DNA from: Siphonodentalium dalli
Taxonomy: Eukaryota; Mollusca; Scaphopoda; Gadilida; Siphonodentaliidae
Direction: 5' to 3'
DNA: 64,000 nucleotides
Assembly (NCBI GenBank): GCA_032622095.1
Contig: CP136062.1
Location: 158,094,875-158,158,874, forward strand
The notes under the pieces were generated by a model. That model searched no databases. It had not been told where the DNA came from and saw nothing but the letters and a program-made list of their open reading frames with translations. This document shows, piece by piece, positions 2,946 to 61,730 of this stretch; positions within the stretch are counted from its first letter, which is position 1, and the number at the start of each line of letters is the position of its first letter. The position numbers were made by a program, and so were the translations under genes.

Positions 2946-2949
2946 TAGG

Positions 2950-3012
2950 CTAATGTTTTCTCTTAAATATGCGAGGATCCATATGGGCAACTCGCATACA
3001 TAATTGAATGCA
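2950..3012. repeat. Decayed copy of the 67-bp palindrome family
   Basis: The words 'ttctcttaaatatgcgagg' and 'gaatgcattggcgcagg' match the two arms of the intact palindrome at 4803-4869, with many substitutions. It abuts the 5' edge of the LINE relic. Confidence 0.6.
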
Positions 3013-4802
3013 TTGGCGCAGGGTTTTCAGTCATGGAAGGATTAATAAGGGAGGTAACTCAAGTCATGGAAGGGTTAACAAAGAAATAAGTTCCCTGTGT
3101 TGTCTGTTCCAAGTTACAACGTTCCACTTCAGGAAATCAAAAGATTCTCATGTTTTGAACAGGCAGCCAGTGTAAAAATTCGTTGCGTGATCTAAATTTG
3201 ATGCGAAAAGCTGGACCTATAGCAAAAATGCACAACATTTTACACGCGATTTGTTTTCGTTTTGTATAATAACGGTTTGTAATTCGAGTTAAATCTTCGT
3301 TTTTTTTGGGGATGTTAGAATTTGGAAACTCGACAAAAATAACACAGAACATTCTGAGATAGTGTATGCGTGTTGTTCTATTGAACATCGTGTAATACAG
3401 ATGGAAAATTTAAGTATTATTTAAAAGTATATATCGGTTCCAGTTATCCAAACCTATATGAGAGTATTACCCGGTCGTGTTTTCACACTTTTAAATATTC
3501 AAGTTTACGTCATCGCAGTCTGTTGTTTTATTTTCCAAGTGTAGGTTATAAAATTGTTATTGTGGGCTATGAGAATTATCGCGAGCCAAAAGGCCAGCGC
3601 ATATTTCGAGTAAATATTAATAGAACAATAAGACAATGACGACTTTATCAATTCATTCATGATTGACCATGACTCGTCGTGATTAACTAATTGTGAATAC
3701 TGTGTTCTTGCTATATATATGTAGTATGAATTAACACAACTGACTGCTAATTAGATCATCAGTCCATTCATTTCATATACCTGCTTACACAAGTAGTAAT
3801 AGTTATGGATTTTGGAAAATCAGATTATAAGAACAATTTCAACATGTTGTTGGTGTGAAATTTCCAACTTAGTTTTGTGGTATGTATGACATTTCAAACT
3901 GTTGAACATTTGGACCAAAGTTGGGATGAGAAACCACCCCACCCCTGTCGCCATGTCCCTATAACGTTGGTCAACATTTTCAAACGATTGTAATTAACAC
4001 AGCACCAGTTAGAAATGTTCGTCCAGAATACGTTAACATTGTTTAAAGTCGAATACTTCCCATATTCGGATCGGAAGTTTGGACTTAAATAGCAATCACT
4101 TACAAGGTATGCAAATGTAATTTTTCGGACCCCTGCCCATACAGCACACCGCTCAGCGCAATGACGTCAATTTAGCAGCCAGTTTCTGAGCACACATTGG
4201 TTATTAAATGCGATTTAATTCGCTCGATCGTCCACTGCATGTATAGTGTAGTTGTGTACTGACAACACTGGTAACGGTACATGACATATGCAAACATGAT
4301 CTCACAATGGAAATTCTATCGTGGAGCTGTTTGGTCAGTTGGTCACGACGGTCCGTCAATATTAAACTTACAATTTTGTCCAACTACAAACATACAAATG
4401 CATAATTACAAATCGTCAGTACTTTCCACCTGATTCACACCCTCTTCGCTTTGAATTTACTAGTGGGAAATTTGTTGTTTTATACCAACAATTTCACATT
4501 CATCAACGAAATCACAGTAACCATATCAAGACACTCATATTTCAACAAAACATTATTTGTGTGATCTCAGTTTCAGCATATCAAAGATGTAGCCAATATA
4601 CACGGCGCCTTTTATTGTATTCTTTAACAATTTTATAATTTCACCCATACAGAGCCCCAGACAAACATGAGCAGACGACACTCTTCTATATGCTTATATA
4701 TATATGTGTGGGGCTCCCTGCAGGGTAATGGATGTTTTTTATTTTATGTCCTAAAAATTGTCAGAAACATTTATTTAAAAAATTTTATAAAAAATTGTTA
4801 GG
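3013..4802. other. No gene recognised
   Basis: AT-rich intergenic-type sequence. A short direct repeat, 'tcatggaagg' followed by A/T-rich text, occurs twice at about 3032 and 3065, with the molluscan-style word 'gggaggtaactc' between. A 'ttctttaacaattttataatt' word near 4619 matches the linker between the palindromes of the piggyBac-like MITEs, so 4.6-4.87 kb may be an eroded MITE. Confidence 0.5.
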
Positions 4803-4869
4803 CCAATCCATTCTCTTATATATGAGAGGCGACCTATGGTCGACTCGCATATATAAGAGAATGCATTGG
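4803..4869. repeat. 67-bp near-perfect palindrome (solo copy)
   Basis: Left arm CCAATcCATTCTCTTATATA, centre GCGACCTATGGTCGAC, right arm the reverse complement ending GCATTGG. It is followed by CACAG, as in the copies inside the MITEs at 34.4, 47.9 and 61.5 kb. Two arm mismatches show some decay. It could form a long hairpin or cruciform. Confidence 0.9.
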
Positions 4870-7800
4870 CACAGTGTAAAAAATATCCCGACTTACGACT
4901 GGATTTGATAAAATGTATATTCAACTCTTTCATGGTGGGAGCTGCGGTGCATGGTGCAGAATATTAGATATCATGTGCCAACGCATTATCTTATACATTG
5001 TATATGCGTGTCTCCCACTGGTTTACCAGTTCAAAGTAAATGTTGTTAGGCCAATGAATTATCTGATATATACGCGGCTCTTTATAAGTGAGTCTCCAGT
5101 GTTATGGAAGGGTTATAATAAACATTAAAGCGGGGGCTTATAGTCAAATAAGATCACCCCGACGGCATGCCCACAAGGCAAGTACACATTCTCAATGTTC
5201 GCGACATGCTATCCGACAATCAACCGGTCCTGCGGAAATATACCAAAATATACTGTGCCAGAGAGAAGGGTCATCAGTATTCCGGGTTTTGCAGAAACAC
5301 ACCATCTATAATAAATTCAGAGATGCGATGCAAACCCCGGAGGTGTATGTAACCCCTCCCTATCGAAGTTATCCTAAGGTTTAATCGGTATGCGATAATA
5401 ACGTTGCATACAATATGTTGTACACGCAGGATGCCATGGTTGGACTGACAAAGATCATGCACATTAGCCAAGCCCGGGTAAAGGTTAATAATCAAATCCG
5501 ATTTGCATGTCGCAATGCCTCGTTGTGACCGGGACACTTAAGCAGGAGGCACAGTGGTAACATTTGAATGGATAATTCGGGGAAAGATTACTCAATACAT
5601 ACATAGCGCACACGACCACTTCGTGTCTTGTCGAATGTGTGAACATATGTTTATGTATAACGTGAAGTTGATTTTTATTTTATTTTGTGACATTTTAATT
5701 TTGGTGGAAATTATTTGCAAACAATCATGTATTGTTGACCTACTTCCTAATAATATCCAAACTGCATGGGTCAAAAATCTAAATTCTGCTATAAGTTGTC
5801 ACAAGATAAGCATTCGTCCTTTCCAAACAGATATGCTATGATCACATACACGCTTTGTAACGTTCTTAGCACCCCCCCCCCAGAAAATGGACACTGAATT
5901 GCCCATCCATATATTAGCACTGTACCTCCCCCTTAACGGATACGATATTTGCTCACACATATCACACCAATGTAAAATTAGCCTTAACTTCGCCGGACTT
6001 AGATCGTTAATCACACTAGTGAGAGAATTTTTAGTTAGATTATATCAATTGAAAATGTACATGAGTGAGCATCTGCTGTTAATATACCACATACGTTTCA
6101 TAATAAGTGTTTGCTGATAACAGCATAACACTTTCTGTGTTTACGTCAAATCTAAAGAATTAACGAGTAACGAAAGTTACACGGCGGTCGATTCCGCATG
6201 TGAAGACATTTTATGAAAATATAATGATTAATGTGTATGTATGTCTATACATGTATAGCATAGGATAATACTTGTGTGCATATTAATTCAGAACATTTGA
6301 GCTCCGGATTGACTGGATTTCGAAAAACAGGTAACAGGTTTCCTCCTATAAAAATCAACACAATTTAATGTATAGAAATTCAATAAAATACATTTAAAAT
6401 AAATGAAAAAAAAATTAAATAAATTAAAAATAATGAACTCATAAATTTTGAATTATGACTTACATACCTTTTTTGCAGTAATAATAGCACCCTCCGCAAA
6501 AGTGTTCCCTGGAATAGAAATAGAAGTCATGTCGATTCGAAGACCATACCGTCATTTTCCACTTTAGCCATGTCTGTAGAGATCAATTCCACCAGTTCAA
6601 AACATGGGAACGTTTTGAATATTCTGACTGGAAACCTGATGACACCCAGGGCAACAACGGTCCAGATAAAATAAAGTCAGCCACTAATTATACATGTGTA
6701 TATAGTATCGTATTTTATAATAAGACCTGAGTCATTTATTGGGCTTAACGTATTTCATAATTCCAGGTGTTATTAGTTATTAACTTATAACACCTTCCGT
6801 TGATTTAATTTTTCAAAGCGAATTTGCGACTTGCTGAAAGTTGAAGGTAAAATGCATGCCCATGTAAACGTAACTATTTCAAAACACGCCTGCACCTGGT
6901 GAGACATAAGAGACCATGAACAGATATATTATCATAAGAACCTAACAATAACACTAACACTATATAATTATGTCACAAAGTAAAAGAACAATTTAATCGC
7001 TTACCTAAAGTTTCAATAGTTTGTATTTGTTTCAATTAAAACGTTCAAACAAGGTGGGAAATGCAATGTCCGCATGCACGCATGCATTGGCAAATCACTA
7101 GACACTAACTGCCGTCAAATTCTCCGTTCAAACTCCGAATATTATTATTACACAATTATGTACAGAGCTATACCAGTTTTGGCACATACTGTTCCTTTCT
7201 TTGAGTTACGTGCATGATGGAGGTCTATTATTTATTTACATGTATATACATGAAAAGCAATGTTGTCTATAATCAGTCATTTGGCTACAGACAGTCTTTG
7301 CATATATTAACTTGGGTTTTGAACATGATGTATGCTTGCTACGTGAATTTGTTTGAGTATTTTGCTGAAATTGTCTTGTCTATTACAGTTTCAGTAGAAT
7401 AATTGCTGTTCGAGGAACAACTATATCCATAATCAGTTTTTCGATCATAGCGATCATAGTTATTGATCTGGGATTTTTAACTTATGCTTTGAAGATAAAC
7501 CTGGTTTTGTGTGTGTATTTGTTTGAGATTGGGTTGAAATTTTATCATCTATTTCAGTTTCGATAGAATAATATGAACTTTCGTCGCTTTGAGAACTGTG
7601 AATTTGAGTGGACGTTTTAAATTCGTGCGTTTTATGTCCGGTCTTAGCAAATGTTTCATTTCAGGAATAGGAATGAGATTTAGAAAAATTTAAAGCCCAC
7701 TGAATATTCGAATCCCATATCACATTATATAAAATATATGCCATATTATAAATCATTTGAAATAGGAAGCTCCAAAACATTGTATTTTCAACTTATTCGA

Positions 7801-17653: not shown

Positions 17654-17849
17654 GCTTGGATATAGCGGATTAATATAAATGTTACAGTACTTGGATATTA
17701 CAAGCAGGCAATTATTTTCCGCGAAATTAAAATACTATTGGAGCAAAATTTTAATGTTCACACAACTTCCAAAATTAAATTTCCTGGATTCAAGAGGTAG
17801 ATGTGAATATTTGAAATTGTCTGACAGTGATTTCCTTTCGATCTTTCAG

Positions 17850-17915
17850 ATGAGAACTATAAGTTTGCTGTCGACAATAAAGAGGGAAAAGGCACTAGAC
17901 TTTGGGGAGACATGA
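17850..17915 (+). promoter_or_regulatory. Upstream ORF overlapping the GPCR start (ATGA)
   Basis: A 21-codon frame begins at ATG 17850 and ends at TGA 17913-17915, overlapping the GPCR ATG at 17912 as ATGA. The bases just before 17850 (TCTTTCAG) look like a splice acceptor, so the 5' UTR exon may begin exactly at this ATG. If the gene is transcribed, initiation at the receptor could depend on reinitiation or leaky scanning. This is inference from sequence only. Confidence 0.35.
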
Positions 17916-19420
17916 AGATGAACACTACTCTGCACTTCAGTTATATCAACGAGGTCAATGTCACGACAACAGCAAAAACCTTGTCAACTGACATAGAAGA
18001 CTGGTACCCGTCGGACTCGAGTGATATGCCATCGCCTAACCCCCGGGTAGTAGCAATCATAACCCTCTGTATTATCTCTTTATCTGGGACTGTTGGGAAT
18101 TTGATGGTGTTTCTCAGCGAATGGAATGAACCTAAGCTGAGAATCATTCCTAGTATATTCATCATCAATATCAGCATTATCGGGTTCCTCTACTCAGTTC
18201 TCTCAATCCCTCTTAACATATTTCATGTGATGGATATAAAGAACAGATTATTTACCGAAGGAACAATGTGTACGATATTCGGGTACTTGGATTTCGTTGT
18301 TCTCCTGGCGACGCTTGGAAACTCAAGCGCTATAGCTATAAACAGGTACGTGATAGTCACACAACCGAGGACCGACTACTTGAAATACTACTCTATCAAC
18401 AGTCTTATTGTTTGGATATTGGTTTTATGGTTGCTACCATCGGCTATGGCGGCTTGCGGGATTCCATATTATGACTATGACTTTCGAGTGATGACGTGTA
18501 CGCTGAGCAGTTCTCGGGACGCCTTCTGGTTTACTGTCATGGTTATCGGAGGACCGACGGTCGTCACATCCATCGTCATTTCTTCTTTCTATTACTTAAT
18601 TTTCAAGACCGTTCGAAACAACAGAAGAAGAATACAAGGGGGCTAATGACGACACGATGCAAATAAGTGCGTCTGCATGTAGTTCCGCCTGTGTAAATTG
18701 GGCAGGGCCATGCAAGAAATATGAGGCCAGTAAGAATAATGAATCTGGTACAGAAACTCAAGAGGAATATCCAGGAAAGAAGACTGTCACTTCCAAAAAC
18801 CACGTCGAGAAACTTACCCCGAAAGACAGCGATGGTGATTTATATCTTACTAAAATAACAAGTAGCGAAACAAAAATAAGCAGAGAAACGAAATAACGAA
18901 GACGACATTGGCAAATGTTCTGAAGGTGGCCGTCAGTACCTTTCACATGGAACGGAAATCAACGGTTAGCACGGTCCACGACGATCAATCCAACATATCA
19001 AGAAGTCAGATATAAAATAGAAACACAGCGAATATTCGATAGAAAGGAACAACTGACGAGTACGACACAATAGAAATAAAAACCCGTCAGAAAGTAAGAA
19101 ATACAGATCACAAGTTAGAGAGAGAAAAGAACGTCAATGTGGTCCATACGAAGAATAAGGCATCCCATGACATCAAGCTCACTTTTCACCTTTTGATCGT
19201 ATTTGCTGTTTTCTGTGTTCTGTATTTGCCCATGCGCGTCACCTACCTGATACACTATTGGAAACCAGTTCATCAAGATGTGTGGTTGGTTGTCCACATT
19301 CTTGCCTCGTCCTACTTTGCTCTTGCTTGGATTCTCTATGGTCTACTCAACAGAGGCTTTCGAAGAGCATACATGAAGATCTTCAAGTGCGAGAAAATTC
19401 GCAGTCGTCTCCTCATGTGA
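17912..19420 (+). pseudogene. Class A (rhodopsin-family) GPCR, disrupted in intracellular loop 3
   Basis: Plasma-membrane receptor with an intronless layout. The N-terminus has glycosylation sites NTT (residue 4) and NVT (16). TM1 is about 45-68 with GN at 62-63, TM2 79-102, and TM3 starts after Cys120. NRY replaces DRY at 144-146; TM4 has Trp168; loop Cys196 could pair with Cys120; TM5 is 206-231. The first frame stops at TAA 18644. A different frame then reads a plausible polar loop to 18896. The original frame resumes near 18878 but carries TAA at 19013 and TAG at 19040, then reads open through TM6 (VFCVLYLP) and TM7 (SSYFALAWILYGLLNRGFRRAY) to TGA 19418. NRY and the YGLLNRxFRRxY tail recall melatonin-receptor and Tre1/Moody/GPR84-type receptors; the TM7 NPxxY Asn-Pro is lost. 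The breaks lie only in the loop, so pseudogene, assembly indels or a cryptic intron all remain possible. The ligand is unknown. Confidence 0.8.
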
Positions 19421-34377: not shown

Positions 34378-34777
34378 TTAACCCTTTACCCAACAGAAGG
34401 GCCCTGTGCCAATGCATTCTCTTATATATGCGAGTCGACCATTGGTCGCCTCGCATATATAAGAGAATGCATTGGCTTAACACATTACAAATTATAAAAT
34501 TGTTAAAGAATGTAAGAAAAAATGGTAAAAAGTGTTAAAAAAAGATTTTGTTTAGGCCAATGCATTCTCTTATATATGCGAGGCGACCTATGGTCGACTC
34601 GCATATATAAGAGAATGCATTGGCACAGGGCATAGCTATAACTATCACAATGTGGTCAAGGAGCCGGTTCCAATGATATCCATATTTGTATGGTTCTATT
34701 GAGACAGACCGAAGATATTTTAGGCTGTTGAAGCTTTATTTGGTCGTATTTGGCCGGTTTGTTGGGTAAAGGGTTAA
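34378..34777 (-). mobile_element. piggyBac-like MITE, copy 1 (inverted relative to copies 2 and 3)
   Basis: TTAA at 34378-34381 and 34774-34777 flanks a 392-bp body with 14-bp terminal inverted repeats, CCCTTTACCCAACA and TGTTGGGTAAAGGG. TTAA targets and CCC-initial termini are hallmarks of the piggyBac superfamily. Inside, two 67-bp palindromes (34409-34475 and 34557-34623) are reverse complements of each other and bound an A/T-rich 81-bp linker. CCTGTG and CACAGG close the outer edges, making a roughly 230-bp nested inverted repeat (34401-34630). No coding capacity, so mobilisation would need a transposase encoded elsewhere. Confidence 0.9.
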
Positions 34778-47727: not shown

Positions 47728-48127
47728 TTAACCCTTTACCCAACAAACCGGCCAAAACCGGCCAAATAAAGCTTCAACAGCCTAAAATATCTTCGGTCTG
47801 TCTCAATAGAACCATACAAATATGGATATCATTGGAACCGGCTCCTTGACCACATTGTGATAGTTACAGTTATAACCTGTGCCAATGCATTCTCTTATAT
47901 ATGCGAGTCGACCATAGGTCGCCTCGCATATATAAGAGAATGCATTGGCCTAACAAAAATCTTTTTTTAACACTTTTTACCATTTTTTCTTACATTCTTT
48001 AACAATTTTATAATTTTTAATGTGTTAAGCCAATGCATTCTCTTATATATGCGAGGCGACCTATGGTCGACTCGCATATATAAGAGAATGCATTGGCACA
48101 GGGCCCTTCTGTTGGGTAAAGGGTTAA
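47728..48127 (+). mobile_element. piggyBac-like MITE, copy 2
   Basis: TTAA at 47728-47731 and 48124-48127. The body is 392 bp, the same length as copy 1 and opposite in orientation. The TIRs CCCTTTACCCAACA/TGTTGGGTAAAGGG are intact. Palindromes lie at 47882-47948 and 48030-48096. Confidence 0.9.
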
Positions 48128-51238: not shown

Positions 51239-52212
51239 TTACATGAGAATTTGATAAGTATCTTGCCAAAACATATGCCAAATGAAATTTGCTAACAAAG
51301 CTGGGTTCCGTGTAAACCCTGCAAGACCATTCATATTTCCAAACATTACTTCCCTGTTTGGATCGGGTTTTCCAAACTGTTTTCTTTGGAAACAGAGCTG
51401 TTGATATATAATGAGACATTTAGGAGGACAAACTCCAGTTATCAAAATACTGGATAGGTCCTGAAAAAACACGTTCTTCGATACAGTATTGGGTTCATAT
51501 GAAAATCCCAGTAATCTGATGATAAATACATCTTTAACAGTTTTTTTAGACTCGAGTAAACAAAATGATGAAAACAAGGACACCTTTCTATAAATAATGA
51601 ATGTGATTAAAGGAGGAATACCAAGCAGACCCAAGACCATGTATGTGTTAGTTCTAGTTGTGAGGCCTTGTATAAGTTTGAGGCACATACGGTGTACCTT
51701 CTCAAGTTGAACAGTGTCCGATTGAGAAACCACACAAATATTCACTACCATATAAGCCTCGATGTAAGACCGCGGACTTGTAAATCATGAGAGAGCTCGC
51801 GGGGGGGGGGGGGGGGTAATACCGCCTGCATGTATGCCAGCATTAGCCAAAGAAAAGAAAGCGTTCTTGGTTTTTGTACAAATATTATCAACTAATTTTG
51901 AGCGAAAATTGTATTTCTCAAGCGGAATACCTAAATGAGTAACACTTTCGGTTTCTGTTAGGCCGTGAGAAGACATGTGCAGGTTCTTATGTCGCTTAAG
52001 TGCTGCGTTAGTACTTTCATTGAAAACAATGATATGGGTTTTGTTTGGGTTGTATCCATAACGCCATTTCAAGCTGTATTCGACACATATATCAACAAGA
52101 GACTAAAGTCCATATGCAGTTAAAGATAACAGTGCCATGTCATCGGCATGCGTTGGACGCCGAGCAGTTTGCACCTTGCACCGAAAAGCCATATCCCGAT
52201 AACTTTATATTT
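51239..52212 (-). pseudogene. LINE ORF2, reverse transcriptase C-terminal half
   Basis: Minus strand, reading downward from 52212: GYGFSVQ, a frame break, then HADDMALLSLT near 52150-52110 (the catalytic A-D-D of RT), WRYGYNPNKTHIIVFNES and ESVTHLGIPLEK at 52072-51900. A G-run at about 51801-51817 breaks the frame, after which a thumb-like IYKSAVLHRGLYG appears. The stretch 51751-51239 reads LEKVHRMCLKLIQGL, GLLGIPPLITF and onward. This is the distal half of the element whose endonuclease, linker and RT start lie at 58226-61026. The two halves are separated by the Helitron-like array. Confidence 0.85.
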
Positions 52213-52924
52213 GACATTATATATTTTGGAAGATCTGTGTGTGTGTGTGTGTGTGTCTGTCTGTAATCGATGGACTCGAAAATGGCCCAGCCGATTTCGA
52301 TGAAACTTGGTATGTGGGGGTATTTTCGGGTCAGGAGTAACATAGGCCTATTGATTTTCAGATCCGAGGTCAACTTTTCACCGAGGTCAAATCTGTTTTT
52401 ACGCCGTTTTGCGCTAATATATTTCAGTTCGGTGCTCACAAATCGATTCGATATAGCGCGAATAAAAATTGCCAGTCATATAATTTGCACGGTTAGAATC
52501 TGTGTGGCTTCATCTTTCCAATGATGCATCACACGCCTGTGTACGTTTAAAGTTTCTACCTTAATTATCGGGAAGAACGCAGGACCATGCTTCGCTCATC
52601 GAAAATCATTGCGTAAATATATTACGCCATCAACATATCGTGACGTGATCGCGTTAACTCTTATCCGGCCGATGTCGCGTTAACTCATCACCGGCCGAGG
52701 TATCCGCAAATGACATTGGGCTATATATCACGGAAACTGGTGGAGCTATCGACTTGAAATTTGTTATGTGAATGTATCTTGCCCCGCATACGAATTTTAT
52801 CGGGTCGCCGAGCCCGTGCGACACCAGCTTCGCGCATGCGCAGACCAGATCTCTGAAACGGGTGGAGCAATCGACTTGACATTTGGTTTTTGAATAGCCC
52901 GTACGAAGTCGGGTCACCTTCTAG
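52213..52924 (+). mobile_element. Helitron-like unit 1
   Basis: The left end is degraded (ACATTATATATTTTGG instead of TCTATTATATATTTTG), followed by AGATCTGTGTG and a (TG)n run, then 'gccgatttcgatgaaacttg'. The right end has hairpin CCCGTACGAAGTCGGG followed by TCACCTTCTAG, then T. This matches the Helitron pattern of a 3' hairpin just upstream of CTRR. 712 bp, no Rep/helicase. Confidence 0.7.
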
Positions 52925-53346
52925 TTTGTTTGTCTGTCTGTCTGTCTGTCTGTATGTCTGTCATGTATACAAATCTACGATACTCGACCGATCGGGACGA
53001 AACTTGGTACGTGTGTGTAGTTTGACCAGGCGGTCGACGTTGTCGTATTGGCGAGCCCGTGCGGCGTCCGCTTCGCGCATGCGCAGACGAGATCTCGGAA
53101 ACGGGTGGAGCTATCGACTTGAAATTTGCTATGTGAATGTATCTTGCCCCGGATACGAATTTTATCGGGTCGCCGAGCCCGTGCGACGCCAGCTTCGCGC
53201 ATGCGCAGACCAGATCTCGGAAGCGGGTAGAGCTATCGACTTGAAATTTGGTTTTAGAATAGCCCGGACAACGTCGGGCTGGGTAGAGCTATCGACTTGA
53301 AATTTGGTTTTTGAATAGCCCGGACAACGTCGGGCTCATCGGCTAG
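52925..53346 (+). mobile_element. Helitron-like unit 2 (short, divergent 5' end)
   Basis: Begins with a TCTG/TGTC microsatellite instead of the usual 5' end, then 'cgatcgggacgaaacttggt'. It contains three repeats of 'gagctatcgacttgaaattt' and ends with hairpin CCCGGACAACGTCGGG and CTAG. 422 bp. Confidence 0.6.
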
Positions 53347-54600
53347 TCTAATATATATTTTGAAAGATCTGTGTGTGTGTGTGTGTGTGTATCTGTGGGT
53401 GTGTGTGTGTGTAATCGATGGACTCAAAAACGGCTGAGCCAATTTCGATGAAACTTGGTATGTGGGGGTATTTTCGGGCCACGAGTAACATAGGCCTATT
53501 AATTTGTTCGTGCGAGGTCAACTTTTCACGTGCCGAGGTCAAATCTGTTTTTACGCTGTGTTACGGGACTTTCATTTGAGTTCGGTGCTTACAAATCGAT
53601 TCGAAACAGCGCGAATAATAACATGCCAGTCATAATAATGAAACTGTGAGAATCTTTCGTGTTTCCTCTTTCCAACGATATATAATATGTATGTATCCGT
53701 TTTAGTTATCTGCCTCAATTATTAAGAAGAAGTGGTACGATCTTCTATCAGGATAAAAACAATGCGTAACTTCTATGACGTCGTTAGAGGTCATAAAGTT
53801 AGATCACGTTAACTCTTAACCGGCCGATGCATTTGACTGTTTCAGACGTCTTGGCGATATCTCGGGCACCGATGGTAATTTATCTTTACGTTGAAACTTG
53901 ATAATTAATGAGCGTGTGTATATGAGCGCGTTTATATACTTCAGTGGAAATCAAATCGGGTTAAACTGGCGGATTTTTTACGGACGAAATCTGATGCATT
54001 GGGTATCTCGGTATCTGCTGGGCCGATTTATCGGTATCCGCTGGGCCGATTTCCCGGTATCCGCTGGGCCGATTTCCACCATTTTTGGGGTGTTTTCGGC
54101 CGGGGGGTGACATTTGCCTATTGATTTGCCCGTGCGACGTGACCTTGACATTGAAATCGGGTAATTTCAAGGTTAAACACCCAAATATCCCGGGATTTCG
54201 ATGAAACTTGGTGTGTGTGGGGGTGGGGTATCTTCGGCCGTGGAGTAGCATAAACATATTAATTTGTCCGTGCGACGTGACCTCGACCTTGAAATCGGGT
54301 CATTTCAATGTCAAATGCCCAAATATCATGGGATTTCGATGAAACTTGGTATGTGGGGTACATTCGTATGGGGAGTCTCATAAGCATATTCATTTGTCCG
54401 TGAGACGTGACCTTGACCTTGAAATCGGGTCAATTCAAGGTCAAATCGGGTAAAAAAGGATGGATTTCGACGGGTACGTTTGTCGGGTACTTTTGTCCGG
54501 GTAGTGTTTTGGACTGGTCAAATCGTGACCCCACTTGACATTGACCTTCAAAATGGACAATTCAAGGTCAAAGCCCGGACGAAGTCGGGTCACCTTCTAG
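53347..54600 (+). mobile_element. Helitron-like unit 3 (long, half-site-rich)
   Basis: Starts TCTAATATATATTTTGAAAG directly after the CTAG of unit 2. The 3' half holds repeated TGACCTTGACCTTGAAAT and TTCAAGGTCAAA words and three 'gatttcgatgaaacttggt' modules. It ends at the hairpin and CTTCTAG. 1254 bp. Confidence 0.7.
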
Positions 54601-54686
54601 ATGGTCCCCTGTGAATGTCTATAGAACACAGGTAGACAGACAGACATACATTCGCAAATATAGATATAATAAGGTACGTTATAATA
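54601..54686. other. Spacer between Helitron-like units
   Basis: An 86-bp spacer with an ACAGACAG tract, the only non-element gap in the array. It ends in A before the TC of unit 4. Confidence 0.6.
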
Positions 54687-54707
54687 TCTATTATATATTT
54701 TGAAAGA

Positions 54708-54748
<41 letters not shown>

Positions 54749-55409
54749 CTGTCTGTGTGTAATCGATGGACTCGAAAATGGCCCAGCCGATTTCGATGAA
54801 ACTTGGTACGTGGGGGTATTTTCGGGTCAGGAGTAACATAGGCCTATTGGTTTTCAGATCCGAGGTCAACTTTTCACGTGCCGAGGTCAAATCTGCGCTA
54901 ATATATTTCAGTTCGGTGCTCACAAATCGATTCGATATAGCGCGAATAAAAATTGCCAGTCATATAATTTGCACGGTTAGAATCTGTGTGGCTTCATCTT
55001 TCCAATGATGCATCACACGCCCGTGTACGTGTAAAGTTTCTACCTTAATTATCGGGAAGAACGCAGGACCATGCTTCGCTCATCGAAAATCATTGCGTAA
55101 AAAAATATATTACGCCATCAACATATCGTGACGTGATCGCGTTAACTCTTAACCGCCGATGTCGCGTTAACTCATCACCGGCCGAGGTATCCGCAAATGA
55201 CATTGGGCTATATATCTCGGAAACGGGTGGAGCTATCGACTTGAATTGGTATGTGAATGTATCTTGCCCCGTATACGAATTTTATCGGGTCGCCGAGCCC
55301 GTGCGACGCCAGCTTCGCGCATGCGCAGACCAGATATCGGTAACGGGTGGAGCAATCGACTTGAAATTTGGTTTTTGAATAGCCCGGACGAAGTCGGGTC
55401 ACCTTCTAG
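54687..55409 (+). mobile_element. Helitron-like unit 4
   Basis: 723 bp from TCTATTATATATTTTGAAAG to hairpin CCCGGACGAAGTCGGG plus TCACCTTCTAG. The first copy of a very similar trio (units 4-6). (TG)n follows the 5' end. Confidence 0.75.
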
Positions 55410-56146
55410 TCTATTATATATTTTGAAAGATCTGTGTGTGTGTGTATCTGTGGGTGTGTGTGTGTGTGTGTGTGTGTTTGTAATCGATGGACTCAAAAAC
55501 AGCTGAGCCAATTTCGATGAAACTTGGTATGTGGGGGTATTTTCGGGTCAGGAGTAACATAGGCCTATTGGTTTTCAGATCCGATGTCAACTTTTCACGT
55601 GCCGAGGTCAAATCTGTTTTTACGCCGTTTTGCGCTAATATATTTCAGTTCGGTGCTCACAAATCGATTCGATATAGCGCGAATAAAAATTGCCAGTCAT
55701 ATAATTTGCACGGTTAGAATCTGTGTGGCTTCATCTTTCCAATGATGCATCACACGCCTGTGTACGTTTAAAGTTTCTACCTTAATTATCGGGAAGAACG
55801 CAGGACCATGCTTCGCTCATCGAAAATCATTGCGTAAATAAATATATTACGCCATCAACATATCGTGACGTGTCACGTTAACTCTTAATCGGCCGATGTC
55901 GCGTTAACTCATCATCGGCCGAGGTATCCGCAAATGACATTGGGCTATATATCTCGGAAACGGGTGGAGCTATCGACTTGAATTGGTATGTGAATGTATC
56001 TTGCCCCGTATACGAATTTTATCGGGTCGCCGAGCCCGTGCTACGCCAGCTTCGCGCATGCGCAGACCAGATCTCGGTAACGGGTGGAGCAATCGACTTG
56101 AAATTTGGTTTTTGAATAGCCCGGACGAAGTCGGGTCACCTTCTAG
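55410..56146 (+). mobile_element. Helitron-like unit 5
   Basis: 737 bp with the same termini as unit 4, abutting it as CTAG|TCTATT. It differs mainly in (TG)n length and scattered substitutions. Confidence 0.75.
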
Positions 56147-56879
56147 TCTATTATATATTTTGAAAGATCTGTGTGTGTGTGTATCTGTGGGTGTGTGTGT
56201 GTGTGTGTGTAATCGATGGACTCAAAAACAGCTGAGCCAATTTCGATGAAACTTGGTATGTGGGGGTATTTTCGGGTCAGGAGTAACATAGGCCTATTGA
56301 TTTTCTGATCCGATGTCAACTTTTCACGTGCCGAGGTCAAATCTGTTTTTACGCCGTTTTGCGCTAATATATTTCAGTTCGGTGCTCACAAATCGATTCG
56401 ATATAGCGCGAATAATAAATTGCCAGTCATATAATTTGCACGGTTAGAATCTGTGTGGCTTCATCTTTCCAATGATGCATCACACGCCTGTGTACGTTTA
56501 AAGTTTCTACCTTAATTATCGGGAAGAACGCAGGACCATGCTTCGCTCATCGAAAATCATTGCGTAAATAAATATATTACGCCATCAACATATCGTGACG
56601 TGTCGCGTTAACTCTTAATCGGCCGATGTCGCGTTAACTCATCACCGGCCGAGGATCCACAAATGACATTGGGCTATATATCTCGAAAACGGGTGGAGCT
56701 ATCGACTTGAAATATTTGGTATGTGAATGTATCTTGCCCCGCATACGAATTTTATCGGGTCGCCGGGCCCATGCGACGCCAGCTTCGCGAATGCGCAGAC
56801 CAGATCTCGGAAACGGGTGGAGCAATCGACTTGAAATTTGGTTTTTGAATAGCCCGGACGAAGTCGGGTCACCTTCTAG
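56147..56879 (+). mobile_element. Helitron-like unit 6
   Basis: 733 bp, same termini and junction as units 4 and 5. Highly similar to unit 5 along its whole length. Confidence 0.75.
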
Positions 56880-57639
56880 TCTATTATATATTTTTTGGAA
56901 GATCTGTTTGTTTGTGTGTGTAATCGATGAACTCGAAAACGGCCGACCCGATTTCGATGAAACTTGGTATGTGGGGGTATTTTCGGGTCAGGAGTAACAT
57001 AGGCCTATTGATTTTCAGATCCGAGGTCAACTTTTCACGTGCCGAGGTCAAATCTGTTTTTACGCTGTGTTACGGGACTTTCATTTGAGTTCGGTGCTTA
57101 CAAATCGATTCGAAACAGCGCGAATAATAAAATGCCAGTCATAATAATGACACCGTGAGAATCTTTCGTGTTTCCTCTTTCCAACGATATATAATGCGTA
57201 TGTATTCGTTTTAGTTATCTGCCTCAATTATCAAGAAGAAGTGGTACTATATTGCATCAGGATAAAAACAATGCGTAACTTCTATGACGTCGTTAGAGGT
57301 AATAACGTTAGATCACGTTAACGCTTAACCGGCCGATGCATTTGACTGTTTCAGACGTCTTGGCGATATCTCGGGCACGGATGGTAATTTATCTTTACGT
57401 TGAAACTTGATAATTAATGAGCGTGTGTGTATGAGGCGCGTTTATATACTTGAGTGGAAATCAAATCGGGTTAAACAGGCGGATTTTTACGGACGAAATT
57501 TGATGCATAGGGTATCTCGGTATCCGCTGGGCCGATTTCCCGGTATCCGCTGGGCCGATTTCCACCTTTTTTGGGGTGTTGGTGTTTGACTCCACCTGAC
57601 CTTGACCTTCAAAATGGTCAATTCAAGGTCACCTTCTAA
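56880..57639 (+). mobile_element. Helitron-like unit 7
   Basis: 760 bp. Starts TCTATTATATATTTTTTGG and ends CTTCTAA (still CTRR), but lacks the CCCGGACGAAGTCGGG hairpin. Its interior is like unit 3 ('tgcatttgactgtttcagac', 'ccgctgggccgatttcc'). Confidence 0.65.
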
Positions 57640-58225
57640 TCTATTATATATTTTGGAAGATCTGTGTGTGTGTGTGTGTTCGCGATGGACTCGAACACGG
57701 CTTGACCGATTTCGACCAAACTTGGTACCGACACGTAATTCGACCCGGGACGAACATGGGCCCGTCCATTTGTCCGTGCGACGTGACCTTGACCTTGAAA
57801 TCGGGTAATTTCAAGGTCAAACGCCCGAATATCACGGGATTTCGATGAAACTTGGTATGTGGGGGGTACTTTCGTATGGGGAGACTCATAAGCATATTCA
57901 TTTGCCCGTGCGACGTAACCTTGACCTTGAAATGGGGTCAATTCAAGGTCAAATCGCCAATTTTGATGGTATTTCGACGAAATTTTATACATAGGGTTAC
58001 TTTTGTCCACTGGGTGTTTTGGACGGGTCAAATCGTGACCCCTACCTGACCTTGACCTTCAAAATGATCAATTCAAGATCAAATCGGGTAAAACCGGATG
58101 GATTTCGACGGGTACTTTTGTTCGGGCAGTGTTTTGGACGGGTCAAATCGTGACCCCACTTGACCTTGGCCTTCAAAATAGACACTTCAAGGTCAAAGCC
58201 CGGACGAAGTCAGGTCACCTTCTAG
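57640..58225 (+). mobile_element. Helitron-like unit 8 (array end)
   Basis: 586 bp, TCTATTATATATTTTGG to hairpin CCCGGACGAAGTCAGG and CTTCTAG, followed by T. Dense in TCAAGGTCA and TGACCTTGACCTT words. Confidence 0.7.
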
Positions 58226-61319: not shown

Positions 61320-61730
61320 TTAACCCTTCACCCAACAAAACGGCCAAAACCGGCCAAATAAAGCTTCAACAGCTTAAAATATCTTCGGTCTGTCTCAATA
61401 GAACCATACAAATATGGATATCATTGGAACCGGCTCCTTGACCACATTGTGATAGTTACAGTTATGCCCAGTGCCAATGCATTCTCTTATATATGCGAGT
61501 CGACCATAGGTCGCCTCGCATATATAAGAGAATGCATTGGCCTAAAAAATTCTTTTTTTACCATTTTTCTTACATTTTTTAACAATTTTTATACATTCTT
61601 TGACAATTTTATCATTTTTAATATGTGTTAAGCCAACGCATTCTCTTATATATGCGAGGCGACCTATGGTCGACTCGCATATATAAGAGAATGCATTGGC
61701 ACAGGGCCGTTCTGTTGGGTAAAGGGTTAA
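61320..61730 (+). mobile_element. piggyBac-like MITE, copy 3
   Basis: TTAA at 61320-61323 and 61727-61730; 403-bp body. The left TIR has one change (CCCTTCACCCAACA). Palindromes lie at 61474-61540 and 61633-61699. The linker between them is longer than in copies 1 and 2, through a repeated 'cattttttaacaatttt'-type word. Same orientation as copy 2. Confidence 0.9.

Follow-up and report, generated by a model that had tools for sequence, protein, structure and literature searches.

MITEs of the piggyBac/TTAA type are in general small, TTAA-flanked elements of high copy number with terminal inverted repeats (TIRs) that begin with CCC, and foldback (FB-type) elements have long inverted repeats that let them fold back. 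The closest precedent for the family described here is provided by the CMITEs of Acropora corals, which show TTAA duplications, have ends that mostly start with CCCTTT and differ between families, and also occur in tandem arrays (PMC2872659). As described there, CMITE families resemble one another more in the internal region than at the ends, a piggyBac relative has the same end with little inner similarity, and the authors suggest that the internal region matters for transposition (PMC2872659). Of piggyBac and piggyBat themselves it is reported that the Cys-rich domains of their transposases bind subterminal palindromes in the ends (PMC11707139).

The window studied here, i.e., the whole stretch of 64,000 nucleotides of Siphonodentalium dalli DNA that was analysed, contains three copies of a MITE family, F1, which with two further families (F2 and F3) resembles the CMITEs in its TTAA, differing ends, conserved inside, tandem arrays and end-sharing piggyBac relative, a likeness drawn from the published description (PMC2872659). 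CMITEs are ~100 bp long, their internal region measures 75 bp, their number in one genome is estimated at ~1600, and the main text describing them contains no word starting with "palindrom" (PMC2872659), whereas F1 is ~400 bp long, numbers tens of thousands of copies and carries two inverted palindromes of 67–69 bp; the double palindrome and the scale are what is new relative to CMITEs. With piggyBac/TTAA MITEs in general (criteria in PMC2872659) F1 shares TTAA, 14-bp CCC-initial TIRs, small size and high copy number, and it differs from them in its asymmetric arms (135 vs 12 bp, from the 18-bp end to the palindrome) and in a core common to other families. Like FB-type elements it has long inverted repeats that can fold back, but these lie inside the element, which terminates in short piggyBac-type TIRs. 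A literature search with the letters of the TIR and palindrome matched only one 12-mer (CCCTTCCATGAC), in papers with no transposon in the title; a search for palindrome-bearing MITEs returned none describing such an arrangement in titles or abstract starts, and one for the name CMITE gave, in the 10 of 24 matches listed, no further paper on CMITEs.

Table 1. Positions in the window of the F1 copies, their parts and related palindromes.
Feature	Position	Strand
F1 MITE copy A, short arm left	34378..34777	-
Copy A left terminal inverted repeat (TTAA 34378-34381)	34382..34395	+
Copy A palindrome 1	34408..34476	.
Copy A AT-rich inter-palindrome linker	34477..34555	.
Copy A palindrome 2	34556..34624	.
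Copy A right terminal inverted repeat (TTAA 34774-34777)	34760..34773	-
F1 MITE copy B, long arm left	47728..48127	+
Copy B left terminal inverted repeat	47732..47745	+
Copy B long arm, mostly without match in F2, F3 and F4 examples at E 0.001	47746..47880	+
Copy B palindrome 1	47881..47949	.
Copy B palindrome 2	48029..48097	.
Copy B right terminal inverted repeat	48110..48123	-
F1 MITE copy C, 411 bp, left TIR with one mismatch	61320..61730	+
Copy C palindrome 1	61473..61541	.
Copy C palindrome 2	61632..61700	.
Degenerate palindrome beside right end (TTAACCCTTCCATGACTTGAG, - strand) of F3 MITE; left end not found	2949..3078	.
Single palindrome in a diverged relative (F4), without a TTAACCC or GGGTTAA end nearby	4802..4870	.

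As the first-pass annotation had proposed, the three copies occupy the positions given in Table 1 with TTAA on both sides, and all of them have CCCTTTACCCAACA termini, except that the left end of copy C is off by one base (CCCTTCACCCAACA). The 392-bp body that copies A and B were said to share exactly proved not to be exact: the two copies, which lie in opposite orientations, are of equal length and differ at 11 of 400 positions (389/400 match, 97.25%), and copy C is 91.5–92.7% identical to both. Each copy contains two near-palindromes of 67–69 bp, with arms of 33–34 nt that are 94–97% complementary around a centre of 1–3 nt, and these sit in a pair of 80–85 nt inverted repeats (94–99%) flanking an AT-rich linker of 67–72 nt. 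The inverted pairs are thus present in each copy, but the mutual reverse complementarity to which attention had been drawn is a nearly automatic property of any palindrome; the informative feature is the inversion that also affects the imperfect centres (TCGACCATAGGTCGC / GCGACCTATGGTCGA), the outer flanks (ACAGG) and the inner flanks (CCTAA / TTAAG). A 26-base palindrome half has 15 matches in the window at ≤3 mismatches and none in 100 shuffles, and the 227-nt block of copy B, folded as DNA, reaches -98 kcal/mol (z -25), as expected of such an inverted repeat. Beyond the three F1 copies, window palindromes are found at 2949–3017 and 4802–4870. Elsewhere in the window, the reading frame at 17831–18643 (+) corresponds to a rhodopsin-family GPCR (Pfam 7tm_1), and positions 52000–58000 are G+C-richer and of skewed composition, with repeat-like frames on both strands, some of them like frames of locus L091 (see below).

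The genome searched comprises 2.23 Gb in 9 contigs. Copy B returned 998 candidates, of which the best 40 were scored; all are 99–100% identical and, as best matches, they are no fair sample of the family. The exact 14-base F1 end occurs 48,453 + 48,528 = 96,981 times (reversed-pattern control 5 + 11), and with TTAA attached, as an 18-mer, 45,784 + 45,828 = 91,612 times, i.e., in 94.5% of cases (reversed control 0). A pattern that departs at five positions from both inner sequences of F1 leaves 254 + 258 ends, and nearly all of the 100 listed belong to one other family, GTAATAT; since a random inner sequence passes this pattern about 1 time in 4, the few ends that remain indicate that other families with the F1 end are a small minority. 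The copy number of F1 is estimated, assuming two exact ends each, at ~45,000 elements; as members of so abundant a repeat, the three window copies are unremarkable. F1 is also present in each unit of tandem arrays with periods of ~14.6 kb and 11.2 kb (L039–L058 and L062–L065; C1:0.735-0.786 and 0.848-0.916 Mb). Rfam gave no match in the window or in L062–L065, so the arrays at the latter loci show no sign of rDNA.

The expectation that copies elsewhere in the genome would be flanked by TTAA was borne out in the fetched sequence, where 60 of 63 distinct insertions have it on both sides (all but L010, L041 and L078@5540). When raw match edges were used instead, 28 of 30 loci had TTAA on both sides, the failures being L010, which fails in both counts, and L023, where the match had been trimmed and which passes in the 63-insertion test. 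Empty sites, which the first-pass annotation had suggested looking for, were found as paralogous pairs of filled and empty repeats: with the flanks joined, they show one 4-base site and no indel there. A single TTAA is present in L027 and L064 for the insertion in L031 and in L018 for that in L067, and a mutated 4-mer with no indel at the site is present in L062 (TCAG, for L039) and in L009 (TTAG, for window copy A). At the L086 empty site compared with L078@710 the 4-mer is TCAA, and a single gap lies within a few bases of it; the alignment of L066 with L065 is gapped at the site and the L015 query matched its own flank only, so neither is informative. These eight comparisons were hand-picked from a longer list. 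TTAA is duplicated as the target on F1 insertion. The F1 copy L078@710 apparently lies inside another copy of a repeat found at L086:2584-3045 (C1:55.19 Mb), which is a different repeat of the same architecture, with two inverted 93-bp palindromes; it is located just after a piggyBac transposase ORF and is flanked by an 8-bp AAACTAGA repeat, hAT-like.

F1 does spread the palindrome block, as had been claimed, and the palindromes also occur elsewhere. Their centre pattern, TATATGCGAG-N15-CTCGCATATA, was found at 141,351 places in the genome (control 0), and among 125 palindromes in the fetched sequence 26 are outside paired F1 elements, 19 of these with no F1 end within 200 bp. Members of this set of 19 are accompanied by TTAA ends of other families. 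In family F2, with ends TTAACCCTTT[G/C]AGTGCCAGG, there is one palindrome; both ends were found in each of L025, L031, L033 and L062@5781, some with a substitution, and these copies (L025, L031, L033, L062) have a single palindrome plus linker and no whole block. Family F3 is recognised by TTAACCCTTCCATGACTGGAGC- or TTAACCCTTTCATGACGGGAGC-type ends, many of them diverged, with both ends found in L003@1209, L020 and L073 and one end only in L003@3166, L022, L023, L035 and window 2949; L073 contains two full palindromes and L020 one and a half. No convincing TTAA end is present at L012, L039, L061, L062@6428 and window 4802, of which L012, L061 and window 4802 were named F4. Genome-wide there are 11,558 + 11,674 exact F2 ends and, for the first form of the F3 end, 4,119 + 4,109 exact matches. 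Over 81 bp the F1 block is 97.5–98.8% identical to F2 and 96.3% to F3 L073, with only 81–85% for older F3 copies, while the F1 long arm has almost no match to the F2, F3 and F4 examples at E 0.001; as in the CMITEs, the inside is more conserved between F1, F2 and F3 than the ends are. Among the 76 palindromes listed for the first 3 Mb of C1, 40 are near an exact F1 end, 8 near an F2 end, 1 near an F3 end and 27 near none, and some of these 27 will have mutated ends. A short tandem array of palindromes with a TTTACAAGGTCAAGGTAAATATTGTTAGG spacer was also observed at L023:2040-2480.

The reading that we favour, with a probability of roughly 0.7, is that F1 is a piggyBac MITE moved in trans, that its core is shared with other TTAA families and has been re-fitted with ends, and that its palindromes aid transposition in cis. 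Matching piggyBac transposases would cut and paste F1 in trans. In the likeliest history, one palindrome-linker-palindrome core would have taken on ends from different piggyBac elements, each new end pair giving the core access to another transposase. The palindromes, and of this we are less sure, may assist transposition in cis, e.g., by offering the C-terminal Cys-rich domain of the transposase a place to dock; the palindromes beneath the tips of piggyBac and piggyBat measure ~14–19 bp (PMC11707139), against 67–69 bp in F1, where such binding is putative.

The role in cis has to be weighed against the possibility that the palindromes are neutral passengers of a high-copy MITE, kept alike by gene conversion or common descent. 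For this comparison 59 distinct F1 sequences were aligned (29 best copy B matches, 28 exact-TIR copies from the beginning of C1 and 2 from the window), identical ones having been collapsed beforehand; this sampling lowers diversity and biases the TIRs towards conservation. Variants were counted on 54 of the 59, after dropping the misoriented L009@2376 and L028 and the near-duplicate or tandem-array L033, L041 and L050, and compensation was scored on 57, with only L009@2376 and L028 dropped. Sites with a variant in at least two copies make up 7/138 of the palindromes, 20/135 of the long arm, 13/79 of the linker and 2/36 of the ends; shared-variant sites are thus ~3-fold rarer in the palindromes than in arm or linker (Fisher p 0.008 vs the long arm, 0.003 vs arm plus linker), with the reservation that shared variants are non-independent events. 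Private variants occupy 30 of 7,146 cells in the palindromes vs 45 of 7,129 in the arm (p 0.08), a rate not clearly lower. None of 40 changed palindrome pairs shows a compensatory change, and partner sites are changed alike in both palindromes in 1 of 41 cases. F1 copies thus appear to decay almost evenly after insertion, with the palindromes retained in lineages that still transpose. Since compensation is absent and the deficit of private mutations relative to the arm is slight, it is this conservation in the source lineages that would speak for a role in cis, and gene conversion between elements could produce it likewise. The passenger explanation, which the absence of compensatory changes and the private mutation rate favour, and against which stand the rarity of shared variants and a core kept across families with different ends, is therefore a possibility to be taken seriously, if not the one that we prefer.

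As for the transposases that the favoured reading calls for, a genome search with PF13843, in which 116 of 649 candidates were scored, gave at least 128 matching stretches, many with open frames, and Pfam identified DDE_Tnp_1_7 in 4/4 and zf-Tnp_2 in 2/4 of the transposase ORFs tested. An element with a 606-codon transposase (L092 + L081) is bounded on either side by TTAA/CCCTTTATCTGCTA, with L093 confirming the 5' boundary, and another transposase-linked 5' boundary, TTAACCTCTTCGCTGCTATGACG, is agreed between L084 and L094. L081–L086 were considered as partners of F1 and rejected, none having an F1 end (TIR plus TTAA, ≤4 substitutions in the TIR), though L081 and L084 have verified 5' piggyBac ends. 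At twelve listed piggyBac places (on C1, C3, C4, C8 and C9) there is a 562-codon frame with exactly one TGA, for which an intron, an inherited stop or decoding are candidate readings.

A candidate partner family was traced via two transposase-flank loci, L099 and L100. Its 3' end is the exact end of F1 plus GTAATATG (156 + 164 genome-wide) and its 5' end is TTAACCCTTTAGCGTTCA (CCCTTTAGCGTTCA type; 149 + 132), and both F1 ends are of the partner's 3' type, whereas the partner's own two ends differ. On C1 and C2, the contigs fully covered by both partner-end lists, 67 of 88 CCCTTTAGCGTTCA 5' ends face one of 92 partner 3' ends within 13 kb; 41 of these 67 pairs are spaced 2.6–2.8 kb and no pair was found in the other orientation. 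One of the 28 transposase places listed on these contigs, C1:255677782-255678864(-), is enclosed, judged from positions, by an 11.9-kb partner end pair, the remaining 27 lying outside any such pair. A second, C1:180752980, has the same partner 5' end ~1.4 kb upstream, and the other 26 have no partner 5' end within 6 kb. In L089/L091, a member 2,731 bp long, bases 1–165 match L102 at 92% identity (175 alignment columns) and bases 434–676 match L100 at 84% over 245 columns, L102 and L100 being the 5' flank of the transposase gene enclosed by the 11.9-kb pair. F1 and the partner family have in common only TTAA and the 14-bp TIR (18–19 bp), with no inner match at E 0.001.

Two other candidates with F1 ends were rejected. 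L061, with 2.4 kb between F1 ends, is, judged by eye, not an autonomous element but an F1 copy (L061:1028-3434) with a ~2 kb linker insert, in which the longest insert-only frame has 104 codons; the insert lies between CTTTAA repeats with ends AGGAATTAG.../...AAATCCT and is, by eye, possibly Kolobok-like. L087 (3.4 kb, C1:163.916 Mb, two F1-type ends), considered as a transposon, is a non-coding inverted duplication of ~960 bp that extends past the TIRs and has no clean target site; for its end region 40 of 606 candidates were scored, all 98–100% identical. At L088 (C1:12.905-12.908 Mb) a 2.7-kb CCCTTTACCCAACA/CCCTTTAGCGTTCA element is flanked by palindrome and linker, and so is inserted in a palindrome MITE.

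Deletion is a usual origin of MITEs, and F1 might be an internal-deletion derivative of an autonomous piggyBac with such palindromes beneath its ends. In line with this, palindromes of 12–23 bp (arms ≥6) occur within 124 bp of the tip in 4 of 5 transposase-linked 5' ends, above shuffles (values as high in 8, 0, 5 and 5 of 500 shuffles for L081, L084, L083 and L096, the ends of L083 and L096 each being known from one copy); in L102, the 5' end of the TIR-matched family, there is no palindrome with arms ≥6 in the first 124 bp. The F1 half-palindrome (≤6 substitutions), however, is missing from 18 stretches at or beside transposase loci (L081–L086, L092–L102), a minority of the 116 scored places, and from the inside of the partner stretches L087 and L089–L091, the single match in L088 lying in its flanking target; moreover, the TIR-matched family has no inner sequence in common with F1. 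We regard such a derivation as unlikely.

The first-pass annotation had described a MITE hosting a nested foldback unit, and in this vein the block could be an independent foldback transposon inserted into several MITE families. Its edge, CCCTGTGCC...GGCACAGGG, is by eye the same in F1 and F3, and also in F2 and F4 on the side present, some with substitutions, and the 27 of 76 palindromes listed away from exact F1, F2 and F3 ends would suit an independent unit. Against this, inspection by eye shows no duplicated target at the edges of the F1 or F3 block, where it could have been lost from old insertions; the F2 copies examined lack the whole block, and in F4 the similarity between L061 and window 4802 extends by eye past the block edge, so that a free-standing unit is not demonstrated. 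An independent foldback transposon is in our opinion distinctly unlikely. Because the block shows no target-site duplication to the eye and is shared across TTAA families, it looks like a core module common to at least two further TTAA MITE families with different ends, and not like a guest of F1 only.

The assignment to piggyBac made in the first-pass annotation is upheld by the TTAA fidelity, the empty sites, the 5'-CC ends and the genomic piggyBac transposases with TTAA and CCCTTT or CCTCTT ends, and also by the family whose identical 14-base 3' end goes with a match to the 5' flank of a piggyBac transposase gene. The TTAA target-site duplication is that of piggyBac MITEs, and CCCTTTACCCAACA falls within the 12–19 bp TIRs with a CC[C/T]T tip described for them (PMC2872659). 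From TTAA fidelity, empty sites and the same 14-base end on a transposase-linked family it follows that F1 is a non-autonomous piggyBac MITE, and its description as a ~400-bp, non-coding member of the superfamily is supported; we infer that piggyBac transposases mobilise it in trans. Membership in Kolobok or in a TA-duplicating superfamily is very improbable: Kolobok likewise duplicates TTAA, and a TA within TTAA means that sequence alone cannot tell the two duplications apart, but Kolobok has 5'-RR ends (PMC9587614, PMC6004289) and F1 5'-CCC ends, and the 14-bp end of F1 is also found on the family linked to a piggyBac transposase gene.

A bolder version of the favoured reading, which we consider rather doubtful, is that the 67-bp core is a selfish module that has outlived its ends, re-capped with terminal repeats from at least three TTAA transposon lineages, and that its oversized palindromes make it a preferred substrate; if this were true, the re-capped core would follow whichever piggyBac transposase is active. 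F1 is a far larger further case of the puzzle posed by the coral elements, in which the inside of a MITE is conserved while its ends change. With more than 140,000 palindrome centres, varied ends, empty sites and open transposase frames in one genome, the role of internal sequence in the success of a MITE becomes directly testable.
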